Below, piece after piece: positions 1 through 17,918 of a DNA stretch of 64,000 nucleotides. The stretch spans positions 124,001 to 188,000 of the forward strand of contig NZ_JACHHP010000004.1 in assembly GCF_014202825.1 (NCBI RefSeq), given 5' to 3'. Position 1 is the stretch's first letter; every line of letters begins with the position of its first letter. A model generated the notes under the pieces. That model ran no database searches and was not told the DNA's origin. It saw only the letters and a program-made list of their open reading frames with translations. The position numbers and the translations under genes were made by a program. This DNA is from Chiayiivirga flava (GTDB lineage: Bacteria; Pseudomonadota; Gammaproteobacteria; Xanthomonadales; Xanthomonadaceae).

Positions 1-538
1 CGGCATGGATCGCCTTCACCCGCTCGATGTCCACGCCGATGTCCTTGCCGACCTTGATCTTCAGCGACTCGAAGCCGCGCTCCACCGCGGCGACCGAATC
101 GGCGACCATCTTGTCGATGTAGTCGACACTGATGGTGATGTCGGTGGCGATCACCGGATCGCCGCCGCCGAGCATGCGGTACAGCGGCGTGTCGTACAGC
201 TGGGCCCACAGGTCGTAGATCGCGATCTCGACCGCGGCCTTGGCGCTGGTGTTGCGTTCCAGCGCGGTCTGGATCAGGTGCACGTTGCGATTGAGATTGG
301 CGATGTCCTGCCCGATCAGGCGCGGCGCGATGTAGCGGCCGATCGCCTCGGCGATGGACCCGTGCGTGTCGCCGGTGATGACCGCCGTGGCGGCGGCTTC
401 GCCGTAGCCGACGTGGCCGGTGTCGGTGTGCACGGTGACGATGATGTCCTCCACCGCCGCCACGCTGCGCAGCGCGGTCTTGAACGGCGTCTTCAGCGGG
501 ACGCGCAGCATGGCGAGCTGGATGTCGGTGATTTTCAT
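1..538 (-). CDS. L-Ala-D/L-Glu-type dipeptide epimerase, N-terminal part (cut by window edge)
   Basis: Enolase-superfamily enzyme of the YkfB/YcjG type, expected to epimerise the L-Ala-D-Glu dipeptide released from peptidoglycan to L-Ala-L-Glu in the cytoplasm. About 179 residues are present, covering the N-terminal capping domain (GYGEAAATAVITGDT at about 45-59) and the start of the barrel. The KxK catalytic signature of this family is seen at residues 160-162 (SLKIKVG). The gene runs off the left edge, so the metal ligands and second catalytic lysine are not visible. The Met at 538 starts MKITDIQLAM, which matches the usual family N-terminus; a second in-frame ATG at 553 was created by a 15-bp tandem duplication. 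It follows the NlpC/P60 gene by 22 bases on the same strand, consistent with one operon. The subfamily is likely but the exact dipeptide specificity is inferred. Confidence 0.85.
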   Translation of the reverse strand, partial: MKITDIQLAMLRVPLKTPFKTALRSVAAVEDIIVTVHTDTGHVGYGEAAATAVITGDTHGSIAEAIGRYIAPRLIGQDIANLNRNVHLIQTALERNTSAKAAVEIAIYDLWAQLYDTPLYRMLGGGDPVIATDITISVDYIDKMVADSVAAVERGFESLKIKVGKDIGVDIERVKAIHA

Positions 539-565
539 GCGGTGCTCAGGCATGCGGTGCTCAGG
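536..565. repeat. Perfect 15-bp tandem duplication over a stop/start junction
   Basis: The unit CATGCGGTGCTCAGG occurs twice back to back (536-550 and 551-565). Read on the minus strand each copy carries an ATG, and the copies are five codons apart, so both ATGs are in frame with the epimerase. The TGA of the NlpC/P60 gene lies in the upstream copy. Confidence 0.95.
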
Positions 566-1964
566 GAGGGGTCGGCGCGCGGACGCGCTGGATGGCGGTG
601 ATGCGGTCGACGAGCGGGGTGCCGTCGCCGGCCAGCAGGGATTCGAGCGGCGTCACCGACACCGCGTTGAGCGGCACGCGTGTCGCTGCGCCGTCGGCAC
701 CGCGCACGCTCACGCCGGTGACATCGTGGATGACGAAGGTGGAGTCGTTCTCGCGCCCGATCACCATCATCACGTGGCCGGGGATGTAGACGAGGTCGCC
801 GACGTCGAGGCCGCGCACCACCGCCAGGCGCCGCGCGTGGCTGGTGTTCGGTTCGAACACGATGCGATCGAGCGCCGGGCTGCGGGCCTGGTCGCCGGTG
901 TTGCGCGGCAGCACCAGGCCGACGGCGCGATAGACCTCCGACACGAAGCCGCTGCAGTCGCGCGTGCCGTCGGCGTGGCCCCAGCCGTAGCGTTCGCCGA
1001 GGAACTTGAAGCCCTGGCGCAACAGGTTGGCTTCGGTGTACGGCAGATAGTCCGTCGCCACGTCGGCGGTTTTCGGCAGCAGCGCAGGAACCAGCGCGAG
1101 TGCTCCGTCCGCGCCGCGGATCGGAAGCTCGATCACGTACGAGGACAGCGGATGCTGGCCGTTCACCGGCACGTCCGCCGGCCAGTCGGCGCGCAGCGGC
1201 ACGCGCACGCCCATGTCGAGCTGCAGATCGGAGACCTGTGGTTGCTCGCGCGTGAAGACGGTGCGCGCGGTGGCGCCGGTCACCACCACGTGCGGCTCGC
1301 GCGTGGCGTAGTCGAGCACCGTCGCGCGCTCGCCCGATGCGAGGAAGCGCGACTCGATCCACGCTCGGTACAGCGCACTCGCGACGAAGCTCCACGCACC
1401 GTCGCGGCTGCGATGCAGCACCGCGACCGGCGTGCCGGGGAACAGTGCGCTTTCCTGGAAGCGGTCGATGTCGGTGTCGCCGGGCGTGCTGAACACGCGC
1501 AGTGTCGCTGGGAACGTGCGCAGGTCGGCGCGCTGCGTGACCAGGGCGAACGCGGGCGCGACGTTGGCGCCGATGGTCTCCAGTGCAAGGTCGTCCGCGA
1601 GCGCGTCCAGCGTCGCCTGCGGCACGGGGTTGCCGTCGCCGTCGAACAGCGCGCGTGTCGGCGGCGCCGACAACGCGCGGATCGCGGCCTCGATGTCGGC
1701 GCGCGGCAGCGTGGCGGGCACCGCCGCCAGGTCGTGCACGGCCGGATCGTCGGCGACCATGCGCGCGTTCTGCGCGGCGATCGCGGCGGCGGTCATGCGG
1801 CGTCGTTGCGCGTCGTCCTGGCGCGCGATCCAGTACGCCGGATCGAGCTGTTCGGCACGCACGCCGACGAGCGATGCCGTCGTGGCGGACGGCGGGACGG
1901 GCACGGGCCGCGTCGCGCAGCCGCCGACGAACACCGCCATCAGGAGCAACAGCAAACGCATCAT
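561..1964 (-). CDS. NlpC/P60 family lipoprotein, predicted gamma-D-Glu-diamino acid endopeptidase
   Basis: 467 residues. Begins with a short lipoprotein signal (LLLLLMAVFVGGC, lipidated Cys about 16), continues through a long region with SH3-like segments, and ends with an NlpC/P60 papain-like domain. The catalytic Cys is in RDCSGFVSEVYR (Cys about 337) and the His in YIPGHVMMVIG (His about 397). Proteins of this layout cleave the gamma-D-Glu to diaminopimelate bond of stem peptides. The start ATG at 1964 overlaps the TGA of the upstream permease (ATGA) and has a good ribosome site, GGAGGTG. The following gene on this strand is the dipeptide epimerase, which would act on the L-Ala-D-Glu product. 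Family is clear; substrate is inferred from family and context. Confidence 0.88.
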   Translation of the reverse strand: MMRLLLLLMAVFVGGCATRPVPVPPSATTASLVGVRAEQLDPAYWIARQDDAQRRRMTAAAIAAQNARMVADDPAVHDLAAVPATLPRADIEAAIRALSAPPTRALFDGDGNPVPQATLDALADDLALETIGANVAPAFALVTQRADLRTFPATLRVFSTPGDTDIDRFQESALFPGTPVAVLHRSRDGAWSFVASALYRAWIESRFLASGERATVLDYATREPHVVVTGATARTVFTREQPQVSDLQLDMGVRVPLRADWPADVPVNGQHPLSSYVIELPIRGADGALALVPALLPKTADVATDYLPYTEANLLRQGFKFLGERYGWGHADGTRDCSGFVSEVYRAVGLVLPRNTGDQARSPALDRIVFEPNTSHARRLAVVRGLDVGDLVYIPGHVMMVIGRENDSTFVIHDVTGVSVRGADGAATRVPLNAVSVTPLESLLAGDGTPLVDRITAIQRVRAPTPP

Positions 1965-3166
1965 CCACCTCCGGCGGGAGCAAGCGACGTCAGCAGCGGC
2001 GCCATGACCAAACCCACGCCGGTGCCGAGGATGTAACCGAGCAGCGCGAGCAGGACCGCGACCGGCACCAGCGCCGGGCGGTAGGCCGCGGCCAGGATCG
2101 GCGCCGACGCCACGCCGCCGATCTGCGCCAGCGACGCGATGCCGCACAGCGCCAGGTCGAACTTGAACAGCTTCGCCGCGCCGGCGAGCAGGGCGGCATG
2201 GATCGCGAGCGCGCACAGGCCGCACAGGATGAACAGCGGCGCCGCCGCGAGACCGGAGAAATCGCTTTTCGATGCCATCACCGCAACGATCAGCGCCAGC
2301 AGCGAGGAGGCGATCGGTGCCGGCCCCGGCATCCTGGCCAGCGGCGTGCGCGCAACCAGAAGGCCGGCGAGCGTGGCCAGCAGCACGGTGATCGTCGTCG
2401 GCGACAGGATCGCGATCCCGGGCAGTGCCCGTGCCACGGCCTGGGCACCGAGCGCCACCGACAAGGCGATGCCGAGCCACGCGAGCACCTGCCCCGGCGC
2501 CACGCCCGGCAGGTCGGCGGGCGGCGGCGGCGCGCACAGCATCGCGACCGGTTCGACCCGCTCCAGCGTGTCGCCCGCCGCCAGCACACGTCGCGAGGCG
2601 CCCGACCACCGATCGAACGCGTGCGCGAGCGGCGCGGTCGCGAACAGCGCCACCACCCACAGCGAATAACACACCGCGTCCGTCAGCAGGGCCGACGCGA
2701 GCGCGCTGTCCGGCAACCCGATCGCCTGCTTGACCGCCAGCAGGTTGGCCGTGCCGCCCACCCAGGTGGCATTGAGCGCGGCGAAGATCTTCGCCGCGTC
2801 GGCAGGCAATGCACTGCGGAACAGCACGAAGGTCAGCAGCAGCCCGGCGCAGATGCTCAGCATCGCGCACGCGAACACGCCGAGCACGCGCGGTCCGAGC
2901 GCGACGATGGCACGCAGATCGCACGTGACCATCAGCAGGAACAGCAGCGCGGGCAGGGCGTGCGTGGTGATCGCGTCCTGTGCCTCGCGGATCGCGTCGG
3001 TCGCGGTCCACGTCCCGGCCACCGCGAGCAGCATCACGACGAGGTAGGTCAGCACGATCGGCGGCAGGAATTCGAACACGCGCCAGCCCGTGCGCCGTTC
3101 GAGCGCGGGGAACGCACCGGCCGCGAGCAGCACCACCGCCAGAAAAGGCCACACCGTCCGGATCAT
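1961..3166 (-). CDS. DUF819 family integral membrane protein (putative permease)
   Basis: 401 residues, almost entirely hydrophobic, with about ten predicted membrane segments beginning at VWPFLAVVLLAAGAF. Sequence character (GWRVFEFLPPIVLTYL near the N-terminus, TWVGGTANLLAVKQAIG mid-protein, GGVASAPILAAAYRPALVPVAVLLA near the end in separate segments) matches the DUF819/YjcL family, whose transport substrate is not established. It is the first gene of the leftward operon and is translationally coupled to the NlpC/P60 gene by a 4-base overlap. Because the next two genes handle murein peptides, uptake of a peptide or amino acid is a reasonable guess. The 178-bp gap to the divergent transglutaminase gene should hold promoters for both directions. 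Confidence 0.8.
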   Translation of the reverse strand: MIRTVWPFLAVVLLAAGAFPALERRTGWRVFEFLPPIVLTYLVVMLLAVAGTWTATDAIREAQDAITTHALPALLFLLMVTCDLRAIVALGPRVLGVFACAMLSICAGLLLTFVLFRSALPADAAKIFAALNATWVGGTANLLAVKQAIGLPDSALASALLTDAVCYSLWVVALFATAPLAHAFDRWSGASRRVLAAGDTLERVEPVAMLCAPPPPADLPGVAPGQVLAWLGIALSVALGAQAVARALPGIAILSPTTITVLLATLAGLLVARTPLARMPGPAPIASSLLALIVAVMASKSDFSGLAAAPLFILCGLCALAIHAALLAGAAKLFKFDLALCGIASLAQIGGVASAPILAAAYRPALVPVAVLLALLGYILGTGVGLVMAPLLTSLAPAGGG

Positions 3167-3277
3167 CGAGTCCCCGTTGCGCGCGTGGGCGCCGGTCCCG
3201 GCCGTGAGGCGTCGGGAGCGCGTCCGTATCGATGCAGAATACTAATTTCTCCGCAGTTGGCAACGAGGAATAATTTA

Positions 3278-3306
3278 TTGACCACGCCGTGACGCGCGTG
3301 TTACAC
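3278..3306 (+). promoter_or_regulatory. Candidate sigma70 promoter of the transglutaminase operon
   Basis: TTGACC at 3278-3283, 17-bp spacer, then TTACAC at 3301-3306, which would start transcription near 3313, about 30 bases before the GTG of the transglutaminase gene. Placed by eye only. Confidence 0.4.
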
Positions 3307-3308
3307 AG

Positions 3309-3331
3309 TGCCAATCGGGGGCAGATTGGCA
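3309..3331. promoter_or_regulatory. Inverted repeat in the leader of the transglutaminase operon
   Basis: TGCCAATC (3309-3316) and GATTGGCA (3324-3331) are perfect 8-base arms around a 7-base G-rich spacer. It sits at the predicted transcription start and ends 13 bases before the start codon, so it is either an operator or a 5' mRNA hairpin that could mask the ribosome site. Confidence 0.6.
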
Positions 3332-3344
3332 GGGCCAGCACGCC

Positions 3345-4871
3345 GTGAAAAGCAGCGCACGCACGAGGGGGCGTCCGGAGCGGCAGTGGCGACAGCACGC
3401 CATCCTGCGCGCCGCGCTTGTCTGCGTGCTTTGCGTCGGCGCCGTCGGCGCACACGGGCGCAGCCAGCCCGAGTCGCCGGACGAGTCGCTGCGGCGCATC
3501 ATCGCCACCGTGGATGCCGGCCAGTTCGCGCTGGCCGAACGCCGCATCGACGACCTGCTCGCACAGGTCCCGGCCGACGCTCCGCTTGCGCGCGACATCG
3601 CGTTCGAACGCGAACGCATGCGCCGCATCCGGCTGGATTTTCCGCTCGACGCCGCGGCCGTGCAGCGGCGCCTGCGCGAGCAGGTGCCGGATTACCGCGA
3701 CGCCGATTTCGAGCGCTGGGACGCGGCCGGCCTGCTCGAAAAGCAGGTCATCGACGGCGACACGTTCTACTTCAAGAGCGCCGTCTCCAACCTGTTCCGC
3801 CTCGACGCGGAGGCCGCCGCGCGCCGGTCCGCGGCATTCGCGCCTGCGCCCGACGGCCCGCTGTACGCGCTGCATCCCTACCACGCCGCGCTGCGCCGCG
3901 CGGCGCTCGCCGCGAACGCCAGCCACGCCCTGCCGCAGCGCGTGCGCGTGACCTACACGCTGACCGTGGACCCGGATGCGGCGCCGGCGGGCAGTACCCT
4001 GCGTGCGTGGCTGCCGTTTCCGCGTGCGATCGCCGGCCAGCAGGACCACATCCGCCTGCTGGCGAGCACGCCTGCCGACGCCCGCATCGCGCCGGAGGCG
4101 ACGCTGCAGCGCACCGCCTACCTCGAACGCACCGCCGTCGCCGGCCAGCCCACCGAGTTTTCCATCCGCTACGAGGTCACGCTGTCCGGCCAGTACCACG
4201 CCATCGATCCGGAGCGCGTCACGCCGTCCCCGTCCACGGCCGAGCTCGCCGAGTTCACCGCCGAGCGCCCGCCGCACATCGTCTTCACGCCGGCCATGCG
4301 CGCGTTCTCGGAACGCGTCGTCGGCGACGAAACAAATCCGGCGCACATCGCGCGAAAACTCTTCGAAGCCGTCGATCGCATTCCGTGGGCGGTCGCGCGC
4401 GAGTACTCGACCCTTTCCAACATCGGCGACTACGCCCTGCACGCCGGCCACGCCGACTGCGGACAGCAGACCCTGCTGCTGATGACCCTGCTGCGCCTCA
4501 ACGGCATCCCGGCGCGCTGGCAGTCGGGCTGGGAATTCTTCGGCGACGGCTACGACTCGATGCACGACTGGGGCTGGCTGTACCTCGCGCCGCACGGCTG
4601 GGTGCCGATGGACGTGACGCGCGGCCTGCTCGCCAGCGACGACCCGGCGCTGCGCTGGTTCTACCTCGGCGGCCTCGACGGCTACCGCATCGCCTTCAAC
4701 GACGACTACGCGCGCGACTTCGATCCGCCCAAGCGGCACCCGCGCTCGGAAACGGTCGACTCGCAGCGCGGCGAAGTCGAGTGGGACGGCGGCAACCTCT
4801 ATTTCGACCAGTGGGACTACAACTTCGCGTGGGAACCGCTGCCGGCACCCGATGCCGCGGCGGCCCGCTAG
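3345..4871 (+). CDS. Exported transglutaminase-like cysteine protease superfamily protein
   Basis: 508 residues from a GTG start. A basic N-terminus and hydrophobic stretch (AALVCVLCVGAVGAHG) suggest export. The C-terminal half holds a transglutaminase-like core with a complete Cys-His-Asp triad: Cys372 in HADCGQQTLLL, His407 in SMHDWGWLY and Asp423 in WVPMDVTRG. Bacterial members of this superfamily are often peptidases rather than cross-linking enzymes. The N-terminal half is of unknown fold. It heads a rightward group and is followed 35 bases later by the TonB receptor, so the two are probably co-transcribed. The start is supported only by position, since the ribosome site is weak; family assignment is firm, substrate unknown. 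Confidence 0.8.
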   Translation: MKSSARTRGRPERQWRQHAILRAALVCVLCVGAVGAHGRSQPESPDESLRRIIATVDAGQFALAERRIDDLLAQVPADAPLARDIAFERERMRRIRLDFPLDAAAVQRRLREQVPDYRDADFERWDAAGLLEKQVIDGDTFYFKSAVSNLFRLDAEAAARRSAAFAPAPDGPLYALHPYHAALRRAALAANASHALPQRVRVTYTLTVDPDAAPAGSTLRAWLPFPRAIAGQQDHIRLLASTPADARIAPEATLQRTAYLERTAVAGQPTEFSIRYEVTLSGQYHAIDPERVTPSPSTAELAEFTAERPPHIVFTPAMRAFSERVVGDETNPAHIARKLFEAVDRIPWAVAREYSTLSNIGDYALHAGHADCGQQTLLLMTLLRLNGIPARWQSGWEFFGDGYDSMHDWGWLYLAPHGWVPMDVTRGLLASDDPALRWFYLGGLDGYRIAFNDDYARDFDPPKRHPRSETVDSQRGEVEWDGGNLYFDQWDYNFAWEPLPAPDAAAAR

Positions 4872-4906
4872 GCCTCCATCAACACCGCTCCGGGGAAGGG
4901 AACGAC

Positions 4907-7900
4907 ATGCACGCAGGAACGTTGCGAAAGACGGCGCTGGTCGCAGCGCTGGGACTGTGCCTGGCCTCGCTGGCCGCACTGCAGCCCGCCGCTGCCGCGA
5001 GCAACGACGGCGCGCTGAGCGGCCAGCTGCTCGGCGCCGGCGAGAGCGCGGTCGAGGGCGCCACGGTCACGGTGCGCAACACCGACACCGGCCTCACCCG
5101 CACCGTGCGCGCGGACGCCGACGGCGGCTTCCGCTTCCCCTTCCTGCCGATCGGCGACTACGTGCTCGAGGTGGAGAAGGACGGCGTGCGCTCCGCCCGC
5201 GTCGAGGACGTGCGCATCAGCCTCGGCAACTCGACCAACCTCACCGTGCCGCTGAACACCACCTCGCTCGACGTGGTGGAGGTGGTCGCCTCCAACGCGC
5301 TCGCCGCCATCGACGTGACCTCGACCGAATCGGCCACCAACCTCACCCGCGAGCAGCTGCAGGTGTTGCCGGTGGAGCGCGATCCGCTTGCGGTCGCGTT
5401 CCTCGCGCCGGGCCTGGTGAAAGGCGATCCGGCCTTCGGCGGCATGTCGTTCGGCGGCTCGTCGGCGGCGGAGAACTCGGTCTACATCAACGGCCTCAAC
5501 GTCACGGACTTCTACAACCGCGTCGGCTTCTCGTCGGTGCCGTATGCGTTCTACAAGGAATTCCAGATCAAGACCGGCGGTTATTCGGTCGAGTTCGGCC
5601 GCACCACGGGCGGCGTGATCAACGCGGTGACGCGCAGCGGCACCAACGAGTTCGAATTCGGCGCGGAAGTGCTGTGGGAGCCGAGCTCGCTGCAATCGGC
5701 CGCGGAGGACCGCTACGACGCCGACGGCAACCGCTACATCGCCGCCAGCCGCGACGAATACGACCGCAGCAGCCTCAACGTGTTCGCGTCCGGCCCGATC
5801 GTGCAGGACCGGCTGTTCTTCTTCGCGATGTACGAGGCGCGCGACTACCAGCCGGTGAACACCTCCAACAGCGGCAGCACCTTCAGCGACGAGAGCAACG
5901 ACGACGGGTTCTGGGGCACCAAGCTCGACTGGCAGATCACCGACAACCACCTGCTCGAACTGCTCGCCTTCTCCGACGGCAACGAGGCGGTCACGGACGT
6001 CTACGGCTACGACTTCGACACGGGCACGCGCGGCCCGCTGAGCAACACCACCTTCACCGAATCGGGCGGCGACAACTACGCGCTCACCTACACCGGCTAC
6101 CTCACCGACGACCTGTCGATGAAGGTGCTGTACGGCGGCAACGAGCGCAACCGCTCGGTCAACAGCACCAACGACATCAACTGCAACCGCGTGTTCGACA
6201 ACCGTCCGGCGCCGCTGCGCGGCGACCAGGGCTGCACGATCAGCTCGATCATCGAGGATCGCGTCGACGACCGCGAAGCGCTGCGCTTCGACTTCGAATG
6301 GGCGCTCGGCGACCACCTGCTGCGCTTCGGCCTCGATCGCGAAGTGAACACGTCCGAGTACAGCCGCTTCAACCCGGGCCCGGGCGGGCTGCGCTACGAC
6401 GTGTTCTCCACCACGCCCGGTGCCACGCTGGCGAACGGCGGCGTCGTGCCCGAGGGCGTCGAGGCCTACGTGCGGACGCGACGGCTGGAGGTCGACGGCG
6501 AGTTCGAGACCGAGAACTCGGCCTACTACATCGAGGACAACTGGTCGGTCTCCGACAACGTGGTGCTCAATCTCGGCGCGCGCCTGGAAGGTTTCGACAA
6601 CAAGAACGGCGAAGGCGACAGCTACATCAAGATCGACGACATGTTCGCGCCGCGCCTCGGGTTTTCGTGGGACGTGAACGGGGAGGGCACCTCGAAGGTG
6701 TTCGGCAATCTCGGGCGCTATTTCCTGCCGGTGGCGAACGTCATCAACATCAAGCAGGCTGGCGGTTTCCTCGACGAGCGCGTGTTCTACGCATTCGAGG
6801 GCTACGAGGAACTGGTCAACAACGGCCAGGAGTATCTGCTGCCGATCCTGGGTGCACAGATCGGACCGGTCGACAACTCGCAGGGCGACGGCACGGTCGG
6901 CGACCTGCGCGGCGAGGTCGATGCCGACATGGATCCGGTGTACCAGGACGAACTGATCCTCGGCTACCAGGGCATGCTCGGCGAACGCTGGTCCTGGGGC
7001 GTGCGCGGCATCTACCGCAAGCTGCACAACGCCATCGACGACATGGAGATCACGTCCAACGGCATCCTCTGCGACGGCGAGCCCGGTTCGGTCGGCTACG
7101 TGATGGGCAACCCGGGCGAGGAGGTCACCGTCTACACCGACAGCGATTGCGACGGCGAGAACGACGGCTACGTCACCATCGACACCTCGCAGGCCGGGTG
7201 GGCGCTGTACGACGACGACGGCAACTACGTCGGCGAGCGCGGCTTCGACAAGCCGCGCCGCAACTACAAGGCGCTGGAATTCCAGATCGACCGCGTCTGG
7301 GACGATGTCTGGGCGTTCAATGCCTCGTACACGCTGGCCTACAGCCGCGGCAACGCCGAAGGTCCGGTGAACTCCGATACCGACTTCGCCGATGCCGGCC
7401 GCACCGAAAACTTCGACGATCCGTTCGTGAATCTCGATGGCTACGGCTACCTGCCGAGCGACCGCCGCCACCAGATCAAGGTGCGCGGTTCGTACGCGCT
7501 CGGCGACCACTGGCAGGTCGGTGCCACGCTCAATGCCAGTTCGGGCGGACCGATCACCGGCTTCGGCGTCGGCAACCCCTTCGACGGCACGAACTACCAC
7601 AGCTTCTACGTCTGCGTGGAGAACTGCACGTCCGACACGCCGTCCGAACGCGTCTACCGGCTCTCGCCGCGCGGCGGCTACGGCCGCCTGCCGTGGACGT
7701 ACGAAGTCGGTGCCAGCGTGACGTATCTGCAGGAGCTGGGCGAAGACGTGGATCTGCGCGTGAAGCTCTCGGTCTTCAATCTGTTCGACCAGCAACGCAA
7801 GATCGAGGTCGATCAGGAGGCCGATGCCGATATCGGCGAGCCGAACGAGTCCTTCCTCCAGGCCACGAGCTTCCAGTCCCCGCGTTACGCGCAACTGCTG

Positions 7901-7918
7901 GTGTCCCTGAATTTCTGA
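4907..7918 (+). CDS. TonB-dependent outer membrane receptor, Oar-like with carboxypeptidase-type regulatory domain
   Basis: 1003 residues. A signal peptide ends near AAAAS, then a carboxypeptidase-regulatory-like (CnaB-type) beta domain (GALSGQLLGAGESAVEGATV, about 37-56) as in Oar-family receptors, a plug domain with YINGLNVTDFYNR and EFGRTTGGVINAVTRSG, and a long 22-strand-type barrel ending in the aromatic residue of LLVSLNF. Such receptors use TonB-ExbBD energy to import oligomeric nutrients through the outer membrane; several in Xanthomonadales take up peptides or sugars. It lies between the transglutaminase-like gene and a lysA-like gene, and the context suggests stem peptides as cargo. 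The ligand itself cannot be read from the sequence. The ribosome site GGGGAAGGG precedes the ATG. Confidence 0.9.
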   Translation: MHAGTLRKTALVAALGLCLASLAALQPAAAASNDGALSGQLLGAGESAVEGATVTVRNTDTGLTRTVRADADGGFRFPFLPIGDYVLEVEKDGVRSARVEDVRISLGNSTNLTVPLNTTSLDVVEVVASNALAAIDVTSTESATNLTREQLQVLPVERDPLAVAFLAPGLVKGDPAFGGMSFGGSSAAENSVYINGLNVTDFYNRVGFSSVPYAFYKEFQIKTGGYSVEFGRTTGGVINAVTRSGTNEFEFGAEVLWEPSSLQSAAEDRYDADGNRYIAASRDEYDRSSLNVFASGPIVQDRLFFFAMYEARDYQPVNTSNSGSTFSDESNDDGFWGTKLDWQITDNHLLELLAFSDGNEAVTDVYGYDFDTGTRGPLSNTTFTESGGDNYALTYTGYLTDDLSMKVLYGGNERNRSVNSTNDINCNRVFDNRPAPLRGDQGCTISSIIEDRVDDREALRFDFEWALGDHLLRFGLDREVNTSEYSRFNPGPGGLRYDVFSTTPGATLANGGVVPEGVEAYVRTRRLEVDGEFETENSAYYIEDNWSVSDNVVLNLGARLEGFDNKNGEGDSYIKIDDMFAPRLGFSWDVNGEGTSKVFGNLGRYFLPVANVINIKQAGGFLDERVFYAFEGYEELVNNGQEYLLPILGAQIGPVDNSQGDGTVGDLRGEVDADMDPVYQDELILGYQGMLGERWSWGVRGIYRKLHNAIDDMEITSNGILCDGEPGSVGYVMGNPGEEVTVYTDSDCDGENDGYVTIDTSQAGWALYDDDGNYVGERGFDKPRRNYKALEFQIDRVWDDVWAFNASYTLAYSRGNAEGPVNSDTDFADAGRTENFDDPFVNLDGYGYLPSDRRHQIKVRGSYALGDHWQVGATLNASSGGPITGFGVGNPFDGTNYHSFYVCVENCTSDTPSERVYRLSPRGGYGRLPWTYEVGASVTYLQELGEDVDLRVKLSVFNLFDQQRKIEVDQEADADIGEPNESFLQATSFQSPRYAQLLVSLNF

Positions 7919-7984
7919 GCGTCCCCGCCGCGGTCCAGGGACGGACCGCGGCGTCATCGGGCGCGCGCGCCCAGGAAACCTGCC

Positions 7985-9259
7985 TTGACCCCCATCACGG
8001 AACAGGACGGCGTCTGGCGGCTCGACGGCGTCGACCTGCATGCGCTCGCCGACGCCGTCGGCACGCCGACCTACGTCTATTCGTCCGCGACGATCCGCGC
8101 GCGCATCGCGGAGCTGCAGCAGGCGGTGCGCGGGCTCGATGCGCGCATCTGCTACGCGGTGAAAGCCAATCCCAACCTCGCCGTGCTCGCGCTGATGGCC
8201 CATGCCGGCCTCGGCGCGGACATCGTCTCCGGCGGCGAGCTGCAACGCGCGCTGCGCGCCGGCATTCCCGCGCAACGCATCGTGTTTTCCGGCGTCGGCA
8301 AGACGGAGGCCGAGATCGTCGCGGCCGTCGAGGCCGGCATCTGGCGTTTCAACATCGAGTCGCGCGACGAGCTGCATCTGCTGTGCCGCGTGTCCTCGCG
8401 CCTGGGCACGCTCGTGAACGCCGCGCTGCGCCTGAACCCCGATGTCGACGCCCGCACGCACGCCAAGATTTCCACCGGACGCGCGCAGAACAAGTTCGGC
8501 GTCGACCGCGACGAGGCCTGGCGCTGCTTCGCCGACGCGGCCGAATGCGCCTACGTGCGGCTCGACGGCCTGCACATGCACATCGGCTCGCAGATCGTCG
8601 AACTCGATCCGTTCCGCGAGGCGCTGGGCCATGTTGCCGGCTTCCGGAAGGAACTCGATGCCGCCGGCTATCCGGTCCGCAGCATCGATGTCGGCGGCGG
8701 TCTGGGCGTGCGTTACGCGCTGCACGCGCCGGCTCCCGTGCCGGTGCAGGACTACGCCGACGCGATCCGTTCCGCCTTCGCGGACTTCGACGGCACGCTG
8801 GTGCTCGAACCCGGCCGCTGGCTCGTTGCCGACGCGGGCATCCTGCTCACGCGTGTCATCCGCGTGAAGCCGGGCGCGGAGCGGCCGTTCCTGATTCTCG
8901 ACGCCGGCATGAACGATCTGCTGCGACCGGCGCTCTACGACGCCTGGCACGGCATCGTGCCGCTGCATGCGCGCGAGGCGTCCACGCGGCGCTACGACGT
9001 CGTCGGCCCCGTGTGCGAAAGCTCGGACACCTTCGCCGTCGATCGGGACCTGCCGATGTGCGGCGCGGGCGATCTCGTCGCGATCCTCGGCGCCGGTGCC
9101 TACGGCGCATCGATGGCGTCGACATACAATTCCCGCCCGCTGCCCGCCGAGGTGCTGGTCGATGCCGGGTGCCATGCCGTGGTGCGGGAACGGCAGACGG
9201 TCGAGGCCATGCTGGCCGGCGAGGCCGCGCGCGGGCCGGGTATCGAACCGGCGCCATGA
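7985..9259 (+). CDS. lysA: Diaminopimelate decarboxylase (LysA-type)
   Basis: 424 residues, PLP-dependent fold-type III decarboxylase that converts meso-diaminopimelate to L-lysine. The PLP lysine is Lys60 in CYAVKANPN. Other family landmarks are HMHIGSQ, the phosphate-binding GGGLG, LVLEPGRW and the active-site CESSDTF (Cys344) followed by GAGAYG. The start is TTG, chosen because AGGAAA lies just upstream and the N-terminus DGVWRLDGVDLHALA fits the family. The stop overlaps the next gene by ATGA. In Xanthomonas the biosynthetic lysA is known as a fusion with an aspartokinase, so this free-standing copy inside a murein-peptide gene set might have a catabolic job. That role is inference; the enzyme family is clear. 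Confidence 0.88.
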   Translation: MTPITEQDGVWRLDGVDLHALADAVGTPTYVYSSATIRARIAELQQAVRGLDARICYAVKANPNLAVLALMAHAGLGADIVSGGELQRALRAGIPAQRIVFSGVGKTEAEIVAAVEAGIWRFNIESRDELHLLCRVSSRLGTLVNAALRLNPDVDARTHAKISTGRAQNKFGVDRDEAWRCFADAAECAYVRLDGLHMHIGSQIVELDPFREALGHVAGFRKELDAAGYPVRSIDVGGGLGVRYALHAPAPVPVQDYADAIRSAFADFDGTLVLEPGRWLVADAGILLTRVIRVKPGAERPFLILDAGMNDLLRPALYDAWHGIVPLHAREASTRRYDVVGPVCESSDTFAVDRDLPMCGAGDLVAILGAGAYGASMASTYNSRPLPAEVLVDAGCHAVVRERQTVEAMLAGEAARGPGIEPAP

Positions 9260-10839
9260 GAACGAGGTGCGGGATGGGCTGCCGGACGTTGCTGCTGTGC
9301 TGCGCGCTGCTCGGGTGGAGCGGGGTCCGGGCCGATGCCCGCGCCGACCTCGATGCCATGTTCGACGACACGATGGCACGCTACCGCCTGCCCGGGCTCG
9401 CCGTCGGCGTGATCACCGACGGCGAGGTCAGCTACGTCCGCACCGCCGGCGAGTTGCGCGCGGGCGAGGGCAAGGCCATCGACCGCGACACGCTGTTCAA
9501 GATCGCGTCCAACAGCAAGGCCATGACCACCGCGCTGCTGGCGCGCCTCGTCGATGCCGGCAGGCTGCGCTGGGACGACCCGGTGACCCGGCACCTGCCC
9601 GCGTTCCGCATGCACGACCCGTGGGTCACGCGCGAGATCCAGGTGCGCGATCTGCTGATCCACAACAGCGGCCTCGGCGAGGGTGCGGGCGATCTGATGC
9701 TGTGGCCGGAGCCGAATGCCTACACGCGCGCCGACATCCTCGCGGGCCTTGCGCACCTGAAACCCACCCACAGCTTCCGCGCGCACTACAGCTACGACAA
9801 CCTGCTGTACGTGGTGGCTGGCGAAGTGGCCGCGGCCGCGGGCGGTGCGCCGTACGAGACGCTGCTGCAGCGCGAAGTGTTCGAGCCCCTGGGACTGGCG
9901 CGCTGCCGCGTCGGCGAATTCGGGCTCGACGCCGTCGGCAATGTCGCGCAACCGCACATGCGCGAGGGCGACGGCAACCGCGTGATCCGCGAGGACGCGG
10001 CGGTGGTGCCGGCCAGCACCTCGGCGGCCGCGGGCGGCGTGCGCTGCAGCCTCGGGGCGATGTTGCGCTGGGCCCGCGTCTGGCTCGACCCGGACCACAC
10101 CCTGCCGTCCGGCGCGCCGTGGCTCTCGCCCGAACAGCGGCGCATGCTGTGGACGGCACACATGCCGATGCCGCTGTCGGCGCGGCAGCGCGCCTGGGAC
10201 GACGGCCACTTTCTCGCCTACGGCTTCGGCTGGCGCCTCTCGGACGTCGACGGCGAATACCGCGTCTCGCACACCGGCACGCTCGCCGGCATGTATTCGC
10301 TGCTGACGCTGCTGCCGGACCGGCGCAGCGGCTTCGTGATCCTGATCAACGGCGACGGCAGCGATGCGCGCACCGTGCTCGGCCAAGCGCTGGTCAAGCA
10401 TTTCACCGCGCCGGGGCAGCAGCGCGGCGTGGCGTACTACGCCGACGCGCTGGCGGCCGAGCGGGCGGAGGCGAGCGCGGGCGGGAGCGCGCCGCGCGAT
10501 GCGGCGGCACGCGCGCCGACGGCGCCGGCCGCACTGGGCCCGTGGCTCGGCGTCTACCGCGATCCGTGGTTCGGCGAGGTGCGGCTGTGCGCGGAGGGCG
10601 AGCGCGTGGTGTTCCGCGCGCGCAAATCGCCGCGGCTGGTCGGCACCGTGCAGCGCGTCGGCGCGCGCGATCTCGTCGACTGGGACGACCCGAGCGTCGA
10701 TGCCGAGCCGTGGCTCGCGTTTGCCGCGGCCGACGGCGGTGCGGACGTGCGCCTGACGCTCTCGCACGTCGATCCGCAGGCCGATTTCAGCTACGACTAT
10801 GCCGACCTCGCGTTCACCCGCGTGCGCGGCTGCGACTGA
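9256..10839 (+). CDS. Exported class C beta-lactamase-fold serine hydrolase
   Basis: 527 residues. A signal peptide (LLLCCALLGWSGVRADA) is followed by the beta-lactamase/penicillin-binding protein fold with all three elements: SxxK at Ser85-Lys88 (KIASNSKAM), YxN at Tyr180-Asn182 (HYSYDN), and the HTG box at about 339-341 (SHTGT). After about residue 410 comes a low-complexity Ala-rich linker and a C-terminal beta domain of the type found in D-aminopeptidases and AmpC-like esterases. Candidates are D,D-peptidase, D-aminopeptidase or esterase; sequence alone does not choose. It overlaps the lysA stop by four bases, so translation is coupled, and the VanX-like gene follows four bases after its stop. 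Confidence 0.85.
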   Translation: MRTRCGMGCRTLLLCCALLGWSGVRADARADLDAMFDDTMARYRLPGLAVGVITDGEVSYVRTAGELRAGEGKAIDRDTLFKIASNSKAMTTALLARLVDAGRLRWDDPVTRHLPAFRMHDPWVTREIQVRDLLIHNSGLGEGAGDLMLWPEPNAYTRADILAGLAHLKPTHSFRAHYSYDNLLYVVAGEVAAAAGGAPYETLLQREVFEPLGLARCRVGEFGLDAVGNVAQPHMREGDGNRVIREDAAVVPASTSAAAGGVRCSLGAMLRWARVWLDPDHTLPSGAPWLSPEQRRMLWTAHMPMPLSARQRAWDDGHFLAYGFGWRLSDVDGEYRVSHTGTLAGMYSLLTLLPDRRSGFVILINGDGSDARTVLGQALVKHFTAPGQQRGVAYYADALAAERAEASAGGSAPRDAAARAPTAPAALGPWLGVYRDPWFGEVRLCAEGERVVFRARKSPRLVGTVQRVGARDLVDWDDPSVDAEPWLAFAAADGGADVRLTLSHVDPQADFSYDYADLAFTRVRGCD

Positions 10840-10843
10840 CGCG

Positions 10844-11548
10844 ATGCGTGCGGCGAGCGCCGTTCGCGCACTGGGCGCCGCCGCCGCGCTCCTGCTTGCC
10901 GGCTGCGCGCGCGTGCCGCAGACCGGCGAGCCCGGCCCCGCCGGCTTCGTCGACGTGCACGCGCTCGTTCCCGACCTGTCGGTCGACATGCGGTACGCCG
11001 GCAGCGACAACTTCGTCGGACGCCCGATCGCCGGTTACGGTGCGGCACGGTGCCTGCTGCTGCGGCCGGCCGCCGCCGCGCTCGCGCGCGTGGAAGCGGA
11101 CCTGCGCCGCGACGGCTACCGGCTGCGCGTGTACGACTGCTACCGTCCGGAGCGGGCGGTGCGCGACTTCGTCGCGTGGGCGCGCGATGCGGACGACCAG
11201 CGCACCCGGTCGGCGTACTACCCCAACCTCGACAAGTCGGCGCTGCTCGGCGACTACATCGCCGAGCGGTCCGGTCACAGCCGGGGCGCCACGCTCGATG
11301 TGACGCTGCTGCGCTGCGATGCCGACGGCAGCTGCGTGGCGCTCGACATGGGCACGGACTTCGATTTCTTCGATCCGCGCGCCCACACCGATGCCGCCGG
11401 CCTCGACCCTGCCCAGCGCAGCCACCGCGACCGCCTGCGCGCGGCCATGGCGCGCCACGGCTTCGTCAACTATCCGCTCGAATGGTGGCACTACACCCTG
11501 CAGCCCGAGCCCGCGCCCGAGCGCGCCCACGACGTGCCGATCCGCTGA
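10844..11548 (+). CDS. VanX/DdpX-type D-alanyl-D-alanine dipeptidase, lipoprotein
   Basis: 234 residues, peptidase family M15D. A lipobox (LLLAGC, Cys21) predicts membrane anchoring in the periplasm. The zinc ligands and catalytic residues of the family are present: His145 and Asp152 in SGHSRGATLDV, and Glu213 with His216 in PLEWWHY. The DCYRPERAVRDF segment is also typical. The enzyme hydrolyses D-Ala-D-Ala dipeptide. The ATG is four bases after the stop of the serine hydrolase, making it the last gene of the rightward group. In E. coli the homologue DdpX serves D-Ala scavenging rather than vancomycin resistance; no vanHA partners are nearby, so scavenging is the better reading here. Confidence 0.88.
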   Translation: MRAASAVRALGAAAALLLAGCARVPQTGEPGPAGFVDVHALVPDLSVDMRYAGSDNFVGRPIAGYGAARCLLLRPAAAALARVEADLRRDGYRLRVYDCYRPERAVRDFVAWARDADDQRTRSAYYPNLDKSALLGDYIAERSGHSRGATLDVTLLRCDADGSCVALDMGTDFDFFDPRAHTDAAGLDPAQRSHRDRLRAAMARHGFVNYPLEWWHYTLQPEPAPERAHDVPIR

Positions 11549-11582
11549 ACGCCCACGCAAGGCCCTGATTCACAAGAGCCCC

Positions 11583-11600
11583 GCCTCGCCCGCGCGAGGC
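11583..11600 (+). terminator. Hairpin after the dipeptidase gene
   Basis: GCCTCGC and GCGAGGC form a 7-bp stem with a 4-base loop 35 bases after the stop codon. No U-run follows, so it may only be an attenuated or processed 3' end. Confidence 0.35.
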
Positions 11601-11663
11601 ATGATCCGCGCTCGACGCCCCCCGCGTAGGTAACAGCATTAACAGCATCGAGGGGGTTGCACC

Positions 11664-12221
11664 GTGACTTGCGCCGTTCCGCTCACACCGTTCGACCTGC
11701 GTCCGCCGCCCGCCCGCACGCGACCGGCCCCCGTCCGGGGCGCGGCGACGCAGGCAGCGCCGGCGCGCGACGCCGCGTCCGTGCGCCGCAGCACCAGCCC
11801 CTGCCCGTTTCCGCTGCGCGTGGTCGCGCTCGGCCACGGCGGCGCGGACGCCGACCTGCTGCTCGCGCCGAGTCCGATGATCACCGTGCAGGCCGAGCTT
11901 GCGATGACGCCGCAGGCGATCCGCGAACTCGTGATGCTCGGTCCGGACGTGGCGGTGGTCGACCTGCGCGACGTGCCGCTGGCGTGCGTCGCGGCCCAGC
12001 TGCGGCGCATCCACGGGGCCTCGCGGCGCACCCGCATCGTGGCGCTGGTGCCGGACGAGGTGGCCTGGGCGCAGCAGGCCCTGCTCGGCGGCGCCACCGC
12101 CTGCATCCCGGCCGCCGCCGATCGCGTCGCCGTGCTGCGTGCCGTGCACGACGCCGCACGCAACCGCCTGCACCTGGGCGGCGCCGCGCGCACGGTGCTG
12201 CAGCGCGCGACGGCACCCTGA
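11664..12221 (+). CDS. Orphan receiver-like protein without an output domain
   Basis: 185 residues from a GTG preceded by GAGGGGG. The first 50 residues are Pro/Arg/Ala-rich and probably disordered. From about residue 50 the order of strands and helices resembles a response-regulator receiver: an acidic strand end at DVAVVDLRD, a strand TRIVALV, and the helix-rich end AVLRAVHDAARNRLHLGG that in NarL-type regulators leads to the DNA-binding domain. No helix-turn-helix follows, so this is either a stand-alone atypical receiver or a truncated regulator. A 9-base direct repeat, TAACAGCAT twice (11631-11648), lies just upstream. No histidine kinase is adjacent. Function is unknown; the receiver fold is inferred from pattern only. 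Confidence 0.55.
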   Translation: MTCAVPLTPFDLRPPPARTRPAPVRGAATQAAPARDAASVRRSTSPCPFPLRVVALGHGGADADLLLAPSPMITVQAELAMTPQAIRELVMLGPDVAVVDLRDVPLACVAAQLRRIHGASRRTRIVALVPDEVAWAQQALLGGATACIPAAADRVAVLRAVHDAARNRLHLGGAARTVLQRATAP

Positions 12222-12273
12222 TCCGCGGGCCGATCGACGACGGAACGTCAATCAGATCACGCAGGAAGCAGAC

Positions 12274-12522
12274 ATGGATCACGCCCGCTGGCTGGAATTG
12301 CGCGCAGCGTTCGAGGCTGCCGTCGAGGTGCCCGTGCACCGCCGGGCGGCCTACGCGGCGTCGCTCGAGCTCGCGCCGGACGTGCGCGAGGAACTGATCG
12401 GCATGCTGGAGGCCGACGCACGCAACCAGGACGGACGCCGCGGCGCGGACGCGGGCTCGCGCCTGCACCGGCTGCTGCGCGCCATCGCCGAGGCGACCGG
12501 CCCCGCGCTGGCCTCGGACTGA
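12274..12522 (+). CDS. Small hypothetical protein resembling the N-terminus of Ser/Thr kinases
   Basis: 82 residues, ATG start with AGGAAG upstream. The pattern MDHARWLELRAAFEAAVE, followed by RRAAYAAS and then REELIGMLEADA, resembles the roughly 60-residue N-terminal helical segment of Xanthomonadales/Planctomycete-type protein kinases that are paired with ECF sigma factors. Here nothing resembling a kinase domain follows, so it may be a remnant or a free small regulator. It lies just before rnpB and 52 bases after the receiver-like gene. Coding potential is moderate and the resemblance is from memory of the family pattern, not from a search. Confidence 0.5.
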   Translation: MDHARWLELRAAFEAAVEVPVHRRAAYAASLELAPDVREELIGMLEADARNQDGRRGADAGSRLHRLLRAIAEATGPALASD

Positions 12523-12602
12523 CCGCGACGCGGACCACGGCCGGACGCCGTCGCCGCCGGACAGCGCCGCCGCGCCGTGCCGCACGCGGCGCGCCATCGG
12601 GG

Positions 12603-12608
12603 TACACT
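12603..12608 (+). promoter_or_regulatory. Candidate -10 element of rnpB
   Basis: TACACT ends ten bases before the predicted 5' end of RNase P RNA. No convincing -35 hexamer was found at the right distance. Confidence 0.35.
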
Positions 12609-12617
12609 GCGCGCGGC

Positions 12618-12969
12618 GAAGTCGGCCAGGCAGTCGCGCCATCCTTCGGGATGTCGAGGAAAGTCCGGGCTCCGCAGGGCAGAGTGCCAGGTAACGCCTG
12701 GGCGGCGCGAGCCGACGGAAAGTGCAACAGAAAGATACCGCCCAAGACTGCGCAGGCAGGACGGCAAGGGTGAAATGGTGCGGTAAGAGCGCACCGCGAG
12801 TCCGGCAACGGACCGGCACGGCAAACCCCACTCGGAGCAAGGCCAAATAGGGATGCGATGCCACGGCCCGTGGCGCATCCGGGTAGGCTGCTTGAGCGCT
12901 GCGGCGACGCAGCGCCTAGAGGAATGACTGTCCCAGACAGAACCCGGCTTATCGGCCGGCTTCGCCACT
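12618..12969 (+). ncRNA. rnpB: RNase P RNA, bacterial class A
   Basis: Catalytic RNA that removes 5' leaders from tRNA precursors. Conserved elements appear in order: the P1 strand GAAGTCGGCCAGGCAGTCGC at the 5' end, GAGGAAAGTCCGGGCTCC (P4 and flanks), the central ACAGAAAGATACC, the AAGAGCGCACCGCGAGT region, and CAGAACCCGGCTTATCGGCC at the 3' end, whose last bases pair back with the 5' strand. A T-run (12967-12972) directly follows and may serve in termination. The boundaries are set by comparison with the remembered E. coli M1 RNA ends and may be off by a few bases. Confidence 0.95.
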
Positions 12970-13028
12970 TTTTCGCGCCGGACCGCTGTCGCCGTCGGCG
13001 GTGCGGGACGCCTCGTGCGGGCCTGCGC

Positions 13029-13667
13029 TCACGTGGCGGCGGGTGCGTGGCGCGCGGTGCCCGTTGCGGCGCGCCGTGCCTGCCAGTCCCGCGCCAGCAG
13101 ACCGAACACCAGCGAATCCTGCAGTTCGGCCTGGTTGCAGAAGTTCTCGCGCAGCGTGCCCTCGCGGCGGAATCCGAGCCGCTCCAGCACGCGCGCCGAG
13201 GCGTCGTTGCCGGGCGCCACGTCTGCCGCCACGCGGTTGAGTCCGAGCCAACCGAACGCCCAGTCCAGCGCCGTACCGATCGATTCCTGCGCAAGGCCGC
13301 GGCCCCACGCGTCCGCGCGCAACGCATAACCGATCTCGCAGCGGAAATGCCGGGCACGCATCTCGTACAGCGTGACCTGGCCGAGGCAGCGATCGTCCGC
13401 CGCGTCCGCCACGATCCACGCACACACCTCGCGTGCGCGGAAGCCCGCACGCATCCGGGCTGCATACGCCACCGACTCCTCGCGCGACGTCATCGCGGGA
13501 CGGCTCCAGTACCGCATCACGCGCGCGTCGGAAAAGATCGCGAACAGGCCGTCGACGTCGTCGTCGCGCACCGGCCGCAGCCGAACGCGTGCGCCGTCGA
13601 GCACGGGGAGGTCGGGCAGGGCCTGCAGGCGCGCGCCGAGGGCATCGGCACGTTCGACAAAATCCAT
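13029..13667 (-). CDS. GNAT N-acetyltransferase, RimJ/RimL-like
   Basis: 212 residues. Contains the GNAT fold with the pattern of the ribosomal-protein/aminoacid acetyltransferase group: ARVRLRPVRDDDVDGLFAIF at the N-terminus, IGYALRADAWGRGLAQES covering the acetyl-CoA loop (Q/RxxGxG-like, here WGRGLA), and the closing helix motif NDASARVLERLGFRREG. The target amine cannot be predicted. The gene is divergent from pyk with a 51-bp gap between the two start codons, so the promoters must overlap. It reads towards rnpB and ends 60 bases past it. Confidence 0.85.
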   Translation of the reverse strand: MDFVERADALGARLQALPDLPVLDGARVRLRPVRDDDVDGLFAIFSDARVMRYWSRPAMTSREESVAYAARMRAGFRAREVCAWIVADAADDRCLGQVTLYEMRARHFRCEIGYALRADAWGRGLAQESIGTALDWAFGWLGLNRVAADVAPGNDASARVLERLGFRREGTLRENFCNQAELQDSLVFGLLARDWQARRAATGTARHAPAAT

Positions 13668-13718
13668 CGGGAGATCTCGTGGCTGTGCTAGCGTTATCGA
13701 TGGTATCCGGGAGGCACG

Positions 13719-16527: not shown

Positions 16528-16974
16528 ATGTTCCAGGGCGAAACAGCAATCACCATCGACGACAAGGGGCGACTGGCCATTCCGACGGCCTATCGCGATC
16601 TCGTCGCGCGCGTGGGCGCCAACCGCCTGGTCGTCACCTACAACCCCTACGAACTCGGATGCCTCTGGCTCTATCCGCCGGCGGAGTGGGAAACGGTGCG
16701 CGACGAGGTGAACAAGCTGCCGAAGGCCATCAAGGTGCATCGCAACCTCCAGTTGAAACTGGTCGGCGCGGCCACCTTCGTCGACGTGGACGGCAGCGGT
16801 CGCCTGTTGCTGCCCGGCAGCCACCGCAACGCCACCGGCATCGAGAAGAAAGCGGTGCTGCTCGGGATGGGCAGCAAGTTCGAATTGTGGAGCGAGCAGG
16901 CGCACCTCGCGCAGATCCGTCAGACCATCGGGGAAGACGAGATCAGCGAGGCGATGCTCGGATTGACGCTGTAG
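16528..16974 (+). CDS. mraZ: Transcriptional regulator MraZ
   Basis: 148 residues, two SpoVT/AbrB-like halves. Family landmarks: [19 protein letters not shown] with the DxKGR motif in the first half and [12 protein letters not shown] in the second half (DxxGR). MraZ forms a ring and represses the dcw cluster from sites just upstream of its own gene. First gene of the cluster; rsmH starts five bases after its stop. The ribosome site is weak because the leader is occupied by the G-rich operator repeats. Confidence 0.97.
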
Positions 16975-16979
16975 TCCGG

Positions 16980-17918
16980 ATGAGCGCCGGTGGCGACCTC
17001 CCCCGCGCTCATGTCCCGGTGCTGTACGCCCAGACCCTCGCGGGGCTGAACGTACGCGGGGACGGGCGCTATCTGGACGGCACGTTCGGTCGCGGCGGGC
17101 ATGCGCGCGGCGTGCTGGAACGGTTGGGGCCGGCGGGACGGCTGCTGCTGATGGACAAGGATCCCGAGGCGATTGCGGTGGCGCAGCGCGAGTTTGCCGG
17201 CGATGCGCGCGTGGCGGTGCGGCAGGGCAGTTTTGCCGGGCTGGCGGATTGGAGCGAGACGGACGCCGGGCTGGACGGCGTGCTGTTCGACCTGGGCGTG
17301 TCCTCGCCGCAGATCGACCAGCCGCAGCGTGGTTTCAGCTTCATGCAGGACGGTCCGTTGGACATGCGGATGGACCCGGCGACGGGGATGCCTGTTGCGC
17401 AGTGGCTGGCGCAGGCGGACGAGCGGGAGATCGCGGACGTGTTGTGGGCGTACGGCGAGGAAAAGCAGAGCCGCAGGATTGCCCGCGCCATCGTGGCGCG
17501 CGCCGCGTCGCCGTCGCCGCTTGCCACCACCGCCGAGCTCGCCGATCTCGTCGCCGCCACCATCGGCCGACGCGATCCGCACAAGCATCCGGCCACGCGC
17601 ACGTTCCAGGCGCTGCGGATCTTCATCAACCGCGAACTGGACGACTTGAACACAGGCCTGGTCGCCGCGGTCTCCCGCCTGCACATCGGCGGGAGACTCG
17701 CGGTCATCAGTTTCCATTCGCTCGAGGATCGGGCGGTGAAGCGTTTCATCGCCGAGCTCGCCAAGGCGCCGCCGGGCAACCGCCGCCTGCCCGAACCCAC
17801 GGCGTTCGTGCCGACGCTGCGCGCTGTCGGCGACGCGATCACCGCCGACGCCGACGAGCTGGCGCACAACCCGCGCGCCCGCAGCGCGGTCCTGCGCGTG
17901 GCGGAGAAGCTGCAGTGA
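16980..17918 (+). CDS. rsmH: 16S rRNA m4C1402 methyltransferase RsmH
   Basis: 312 residues, SAM-dependent N4-methyltransferase acting on 16S rRNA position C1402. Motifs: [26 protein letters not shown] (SAM site), [22 protein letters not shown], and the C-terminal signature [17 protein letters not shown]. The ATG at 16980 is five bases after the mraZ stop. Its TGA overlaps the GTG of ftsL. Confidence 0.97.

Follow-up and report, generated by a model that had tools for sequence, protein, structure and literature searches.

In the YkfABC-Dpp system of Bacillus subtilis and B. cereus, a YkfB-like epimerase adjoins an NlpC/P60 enzyme acting on the gamma-D-Glu-diaminopimelate bond, and the latter is an exported protein in B. 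cereus, where YkfB presumably receives its L-Ala-D-Glu by import (available text of PMC2954226). The same pair, again with an exported-looking NlpC protein, forms the core of the divergent gene locus analysed here, positions 1-11548 of a 64,000-nucleotide stretch of Chiayiivirga flava DNA (assembly GCF_014202825.1, contig NZ_JACHHP010000004.1, positions 124,001 to 188,000; hereafter the window). According to the same text, an epimerase gene also lies next to an SH3b-NlpC/P60 gene in Bacteroides, Gramella, Acidobacterium and Solibacter, which we compared for this pair alone. The Escherichia coli route of MpaA, YcjG, PepD and Mpl has L-Ala-D-Glu epimerisation in common with the locus, and Mpl in common with the C. 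flava genome, but MpaA is a metallocarboxypeptidase, and the route as described in that text includes neither a receptor nor a dedicated diaminopimelate decarboxylase (LysA). Tannerella forsythia is likewise a Gram-negative that uses the peptidoglycan fragments of other bacteria, but it takes up sugar-linked fragments via AmpG, and TonB, NlpC and epimerase are unnamed in the available text of PMC5388701. The N-acetylglucosamine (GlcNAc) clusters of Caulobacter likewise take up a wall component via a TonB receptor encoded with catabolic enzymes and a regulator, but the component is a sugar rather than a peptide and the regulators are of the GntR type (PMC13046382, available text). In contrast to YkfABC-Dpp, the C. 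flava locus has a DUF819 permease and no ABC importer, adds an outer-membrane receptor, a dedicated LysA, M15 and S12 hydrolases, a transglutaminase-fold protein and an RpiR regulator, and its NlpC/P60 protein is without the Asp that defines YkfC. The core thus resembles YkfB/YkfC, and what is new is the combination of receptor, DUF819, dedicated LysA and regulator; a search of the open-licence PubMed Central literature found no description of this locus, which may still have been published. We consider it probable that the locus is one RpiR-controlled unit for the use of murein stem peptides.

An earlier note on this DNA had named eight gene families packed tightly into two divergent arms. 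All eight were confirmed with Pfam and NCBIfam profiles, and the packing is borne out by a one-base overlap of the NlpC/P60 and DUF819 genes at 1961 and, provided that the hydrolase starts at its ATG, by an overlap of the LysA and serine hydrolase genes at 9256-9259. The extent given for the locus holds for the genes of the window but not for its end at the window edge, as the complete epimerase gene (G000:C4:123432-124553, 373 amino acids) extends past the left edge and three more genes on the same strand sit beyond it. The locus comprises the following features:

1 to 553, minus strand: dipeptide epimerase of the L-Ala-D/L-Glu type, N-terminal part (Pfam MR_MLE N and C).
561 to 1961, minus strand: NlpC/P60 endopeptidase with SH3b domain and a lipobox-like N-terminus (VGGC, read by eye; Pfam SH3_6 and NLPC_P60).
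1961 to 3166, minus strand: DUF819 permease (PF05684, 224.5 bits), the single DUF819 gene found in this genome.
3237 to 3283, no strand assigned, between the divergent arms: double operator-like site, GMATANNTNATTS in a 31-base repeat, overlapping a TTGACC box.
3345 to 4871, plus strand: transglutaminase-fold cysteine hydrolase, exported-looking (Pfam Transglut_core).
4907 to 7918, plus strand: TonB-dependent receptor with an N-terminal carboxypeptidase-regulatory-like domain (Plug, 25.8 bits, passing the cut-off of 23.9; TonB_dep_Rec_b-barrel, 36.6 bits, passing 27; OMP_b-brl_4; CarboxypepD_reg).
7985 to 9259, plus strand: second diaminopimelate decarboxylase, LysA (TIGR01048, 469.6 bits, cut-off 297.9).
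9256 to 10839, plus strand: serine hydrolase of the beta-lactamase/S12 fold (SxxK, YxN, HTG; PF00144, 195.7 bits).
10799 to 11548 (start at 10799 or 10844), plus strand: M15 D-Ala-D-Ala-dipeptidase-like protein with a lipobox-like N-terminus, read by eye (PF01427, 153.5 bits).
Left of the window beyond the epimerase, minus strand (that of the epimerase): RpiR regulator (HTH_6, 77.7 bits; SIS, 47.8 bits).
Left of the window after the RpiR gene, minus strand: YkuD-fold protein (Pfam YkuD, 22.9 bits, narrowly under the cut-off of 23.4).
Left of the window after the YkuD-fold gene, minus strand: APC amino-acid permease (profile match).

A search of 397 genomes of the order for the DUF819 subfamily of the window (set at ≥55% identity) returned at least 75 other genomes with that subfamily, other genomes having a distant one at about 30-35% identity. 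With a gene counted as present if its best tblastn match reached ≥40% identity anywhere within a 20 kb stretch around DUF819, the 75 DUF819-anchored loci contain the epimerase and NlpC/P60 genes without exception (75/75 each), followed by YkuD (72/75), RpiR (66/75), transglutaminase (65/75), the receptor (61/75) and LysA (45/75). The hydrolase (at least 60/75) and M15 (at least 58/75) counts are lower bounds, since many stretches stop at M15, and the match scored as hydrolase in L068 sits apart from the block. Matches to an M19 membrane dipeptidase, identified with Pfam at 316.6 bits, occur in 54/75 of these loci; in those inspected its gene sits after LysA or the receptor, as at 16665-17873 between LysA and hydrolase in L069. 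The flanking genes served as a control, the APC permease being found in 1/75 loci and the membrane-protein gene past it in 0/75. Because the block recurs in 75 other genomes while the flank genes do not, chance synteny was ruled out. Stretches around another DUF819 subfamily (L143-L146) gave 0 matches to all the other locus queries; in two of them (L144 and L145, about 9400-15100) that subfamily adjoins, by eye, an S9 peptidase, an OPT oligopeptide transporter and CstA. Reduced loci also occur, seven with YkuD, epimerase, NlpC, DUF819 and M15 and two with only the first four. L079, L082, L093, L102, L106, L107 and L115 are reduced loci without RpiR and without the operator, and the epimerases of the seven reduced loci are 64-75% similar to that of the window, below those of full loci.

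Two further collections extend this picture. A scan of 84,980 species gave 515 confirmed places, of which 80 were kept as named loci (NlpC 79, epimerase 76, receptor 62, LysA 46); this set overlaps the 75-locus set, and the counts are not additive. Named loci were found in Rhodanobacter, Dyella, Luteibacter, Frateuria, Lysobacter, Tahibacter, Dokdonella, Steroidobacter, Povalibacter and others, the farthest being that of Pseudokordiimonas caeni (Alphaproteobacteria), where the order is rearranged to RpiR, LysA, hydrolase, epimerase, NlpC, DUF819 and receptor. Near it lie genes for an S66 LD-carboxypeptidase, a DAO-family oxidoreductase, an NhaC-type antiporter and two further beta-lactamase-fold proteins. 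Pseudokordiimonas has one LysA within the locus and another elsewhere, and in a quick LysA tree, which carried long-branch warnings, the locus copy is not grouped with the other locus LysAs, a result that bears on the idea of co-transfer. In L068 and L175 (Lysobacter daejeonensis) the left arm is present and the right arm absent; L068 retains the operator-like site, followed by tRNA-gene-like sequence (by eye).

Among the matches listed, many genomes that lack this DUF819 nevertheless have the epimerase near the receptor, and a second set of 39 epimerase-anchored loci was drawn from such genomes. Twenty of these were selected for a nearby receptor match (receptor 20, RpiR 20, LysA 3), and 19 came from lower in the epimerase list (receptor 1, RpiR 9, LysA 4, transglutaminase 5). 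An alternative TonB receptor was confirmed with Pfam as a second one in L244 and seen by eye in L240, L268 and L277. Amidase_2 was found in all three candidates scanned (L244, L262 and L277), with a similar protein by eye in L260, and a D-amino-acid-dehydrogenase-like protein is encoded in the L277 locus. The initial view of the APC permease as an unrelated flank was revised, as 16/39 loci of the second set have one. The earlier note had treated separation of these genes in related genomes as grounds for abandoning its proposal; they were found together in the DUF819-anchored, named and epimerase-anchored sets, and its murein-peptide theme gains from relatives that place Amidase_2, a D-amino-acid-dehydrogenase-like protein or an S66 LD-carboxypeptidase in the same locus.

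Two GMATANNTNATTS elements, 31 bases apart, lie between DUF819 and the right arm; the second copy overlaps TTGACC, downstream of which TGTTACACA is conserved (promoter boxes were read by eye). This double pattern occurs once in the C. flava genome (4.07 Mb), the left site having two mismatches, and 0 times in the reversed control. The operator-like site tracks the regulator gene: it was found in 66/66 DUF819-anchored loci with rpiR and 0/9 without, in 96/96 and 0/19, respectively, when the second set and C. flava itself are added (two mismatches at most in the sixteen-base core), and in 65/68 and 0/12 in the named set. The three misses of the named set are L148, where the slice stops inside the site, L202, with a slice of 60 bases, and the alphaproteobacterial L226, with a looser match. 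The regulator has both domains of the RpiR family (HTH_6 and SIS) and scores below the MurR equivalog cut-offs (NF012026, 87.3 of 408 bits; NF008590, 158.2 of 355 bits), and its recognition part is nearly invariant in 134 copies. It is the candidate protein for binding the operator-like site and, because this shared site lies between them, the two arms are probably under joint control.

The LysA of the window is a dedicated second copy tied to the locus. The C. flava genome also encodes a bifunctional aspartokinase-decarboxylase (NF006515, 1299.8 bits, cut-off 802), on account of which the window gene was rejected as the ordinary lysine gene, and has a third, weak LysA match (86 bits). In the 75 genomes, the stand-alone LysA matches listed (449-485 bits) all fall within locus stretches (45/45). 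Among the matches listed, 75/75 genomes have another one, scoring 275-330 bits and set in a long frame (870-1469 codons), whose C. flava counterpart is the bifunctional enzyme. The window enzyme, a TIGR01048 member with its best PDB match in 3vab, belongs to a group in which the pyridoxal phosphate (PLP) Lys and the HIGSQ, EPGR and CE motifs are kept in 92/92 copies, neighbouring positions excepted. The place that the earlier note gave the decarboxylase in the locus is supported by its being an extra copy and by the listed stand-alone LysAs lying inside the locus.

The active sites of the remaining enzymes are also intact; the copy counts include genomes common to both collections and exclude copies with an internal stop or below 75% of full length. 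The epimerase has its best PDB match in the B. subtilis L-Ala-D/L-Glu epimerase YkfB (1jpm/1tkk, 337 bits). Such epimerases are marked by the Lys and acid motifs of the enolase superfamily, the Arg of PFKTALR and a C-terminal DxD. This set is present here: 137-138 of the 138 copies keep KIK, LDAN, LEQP, ADES, KLMK, Arg29, Asp326 and Asp328, and 1jpm has the same residues. The transglutaminase-fold protein keeps Cys372, His407 and Asp423 in 131/131 copies, and its model (pLDDT 89.8) best matches 3isr among solved structures (Z 19.9, rmsd 3.4, 263 aligned). In the serine hydrolase, the motif residues Ser, Lys, Tyr and Asn together with HTG, a motif seen in D-peptidases, occur in 119/119 copies. 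The M15 protein had been called a VanX-type dipeptidase, which holds in that its nearest PDB match is VanX (1r44, 154 bits) and its zinc-ligand and catalytic residues are kept (Arg116, His160 and Asp167 in 96/96 copies; Glu228 and His231 in 89/96, the other seven being gaps), but not at the level of the VanX and DdpX equivalog cut-offs, below which it scores (187.2 of 320 and 121.9 of 176 bits).

The description of the locus as complete proves too strong. The C. flava genome contains no S66 LD-carboxypeptidase (the E. coli and B. subtilis controls were detected), and its two Amidase_2 genes lie outside the locus. The LD-carboxypeptidase step may be supplied by the YkuD-fold protein, in which the active-site motif of His202, Gly213 and Cys214 is kept in 136/136 copies, and a role as stand-in for S66 is suggested because the Pseudokordiimonas locus has S66 and no YkuD match. 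A single-sequence search for a solved relative of this protein gave 0 matches, and the nearest PDB entry in a profile search, at a non-significant E of 0.45, was Pgp2, which we take to be an LD-carboxypeptidase.

Several observations weigh against reading the locus as a single RpiR-controlled unit for murein stem peptides. On the tree, rpiR and operator change in step just three times, giving two to three independent pairs, with no significance attainable, and rpiR is absent from 9/75 loci and the transglutaminase gene from 10/75 (tblastn). This receptor, found in 61/75 loci but in just 1/19 of one comparison batch, is therefore not general; the earlier inclusion of a TonB receptor in the locus stands for most DUF819-anchored loci and not as a universal trait. 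LysA is patchy (45/75, 3/20 and 4/19 loci), and the second set, having been drawn from genomes without this DUF819, has it in 0/39 loci. The epimerase scores below the NCBIfam equivalog cut-offs (NF041118, 251.4 of 500 bits; NF011708, 110.4 of 343 bits), and at the position equivalent to Asp256 of BcYkfC the NlpC/P60 protein has Asn in 133/140 copies and Asp in 7/140. The genome also has Mpl (607 bits), so that the tripeptide could be recycled by other means. Overall, the earlier proposal of murein-peptide scavenging is partly supported: the conserved neighbourhood, the dedicated LysA and the operator-like site speak for it, but completeness, a receptor in every locus and a strict YkfC are not borne out.

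DUF819 proteins are CPA/AT transporters, with Glt symporters and aspartate-alanine exchangers as near relations (PMC8396727, available text). In the Neisseria meningitidis methylcitrate cluster, an M15 gene is followed by a DUF819 gene in 75/128 genomes, with no role assigned in the available text of PMC12671195, and no DUF819 substrate was found in the papers listed by a search on the family in open-licence PubMed Central. The tightest partner of DUF819 is NlpC (75/75 and 79/80 loci), even where there is no epimerase match; because of this, we put at not far short of even the chance that its cargo is the NlpC product, L-Ala-D-Glu or diaminopimelate. In the named loci L199, L209, L210 and L216, NlpC adjoins DUF819 with neither an epimerase nor an RpiR match.

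From gene content and conservation we infer substrates, directions of transport and a regulator ligand as follows. Murein fragments would cross the outer membrane through the TonB receptor and be trimmed by the exported transglutaminase-fold enzyme, serine hydrolase, M15 protein and YkuD-fold protein, the peptides having been freed by an amidase that would be encoded elsewhere or, in some relatives, inside the locus. NlpC/P60 would then cleave the gamma-D-Glu/diaminopimelate bond, and DUF819, perhaps with the APC permease, would import L-Ala-D-Glu as well as free amino acids. Inside the cytoplasm, the epimerase would yield L-Ala-L-Glu, cleavable by ordinary dipeptidases, and the dedicated LysA would turn diaminopimelate into lysine. 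The RpiR/SIS protein at the double site would repress or activate both arms, its signal probably being a murein-derived sugar phosphate. We tentatively go further, with somewhat less than even confidence, and picture an RpiR-switched locus that would do for peptides what polysaccharide-utilisation loci do for polysaccharides. Its TonB receptor would take murein fragments, DUF819 would import L-Ala-D-Glu and a dedicated LysA would belong to the set, so that relatives of Lysobacter and Rhodanobacter could feed on wall material from dead or killed bacteria; the YkuD-fold protein would be a new LD-carboxypeptidase that replaces S66. If true, this would give DUF819 a concrete, testable substrate, provide a TonB receptor that handles murein peptides and, in many genomes, connect with the use of murein an additional LysA that is easily annotated as a lysine-biosynthesis enzyme; the feeding of Gram-negative bacteria on the walls of others would become directly testable.

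The same enzymes would serve self-recycling or wall remodelling, in which the cell's own turnover products are processed in the periplasm and the receptor recaptures lost fragments rather than feeding on other bacteria. The loci without this receptor and the presence of the YkuD-fold protein in 72/75 loci are in keeping with such a role, which we regard as a serious but rather doubtful possibility: C. flava already has the usual recycling ligase in Mpl, the dedicated LysA and receptor fit catabolism of supplied peptides better, and the dedicated regulator points to a conditional nutrient system.

A further alternative is that NlpC/P60 acts on intact murein or muropeptides, so that the locus would start with the digestion of foreign walls and not with free stem peptides. 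Two residues together define YkfC: the Asp that follows the PR motif and holds the free amine of L-Ala, and an SH3b Tyr (PMC2954226, available text). BcYkfC (3h41) reads PRDSG at this point and the locus NlpC profile PRNTS, the Asn being shared with 3m1u (LPRN in the alignment). The AlphaFold2 model of the window protein (pLDDT 92.0) has its best fold match in the same 3m1u (Z 33.0, rmsd 4.0, 405 aligned), ahead of YkfC 3h41 (Z 21.6, rmsd 3.2, 258 residues) and BT_1314 (4r0k, Z 20.3). The Desulfovibrio enzyme 3m1u is reported to be a wall lysin. Against a lysin-like action, 140/140 copies have a Tyr (Tyr198) where the first SH3b domain ends and 3m1u has Ala; it may correspond to Tyr118, the Tyr of that strand serving as the second YkfC mark (PMC2954226, available text). 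We judge this alternative unlikely. The YkfC-type assignment made earlier stands for the SH3b and NlpC/P60 domains and for the catalytic Cys336 and His396 (140/140 copies) but fails at the defining Asp. By sequence and fold, the protein is nearest to a gamma-D-Glu-diaminopimelate endopeptidase, which we predict it to be, and is not classed as YkfC.

Use of other gamma-glutamyl or D-amino-acid peptides, such as poly-gamma-glutamate or secondary metabolites, is very improbable: enzymes of the NlpC/P60, S12, M15 and M19 families do accept a range of peptides containing D-residues, but LysA, the YkfB-like epimerase and the Amidase_2 and S66 LD-carboxypeptidase of relatives all indicate the murein stem-peptide unit preferred here.

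To the right of the locus, an open frame at 13719-15185 of the window resembles pyruvate kinase (by eye). Farther right, window positions 20754-21083 and 26457-27593 (G000:C4:144754-145083 and 150457-151593) match the Mpl model weakly (26.7 bits) and moderately (168.3 bits), respectively; both are probably Mur ligases, which would put a possible cluster of cell-wall synthesis genes some 9 kb rightward of the locus.

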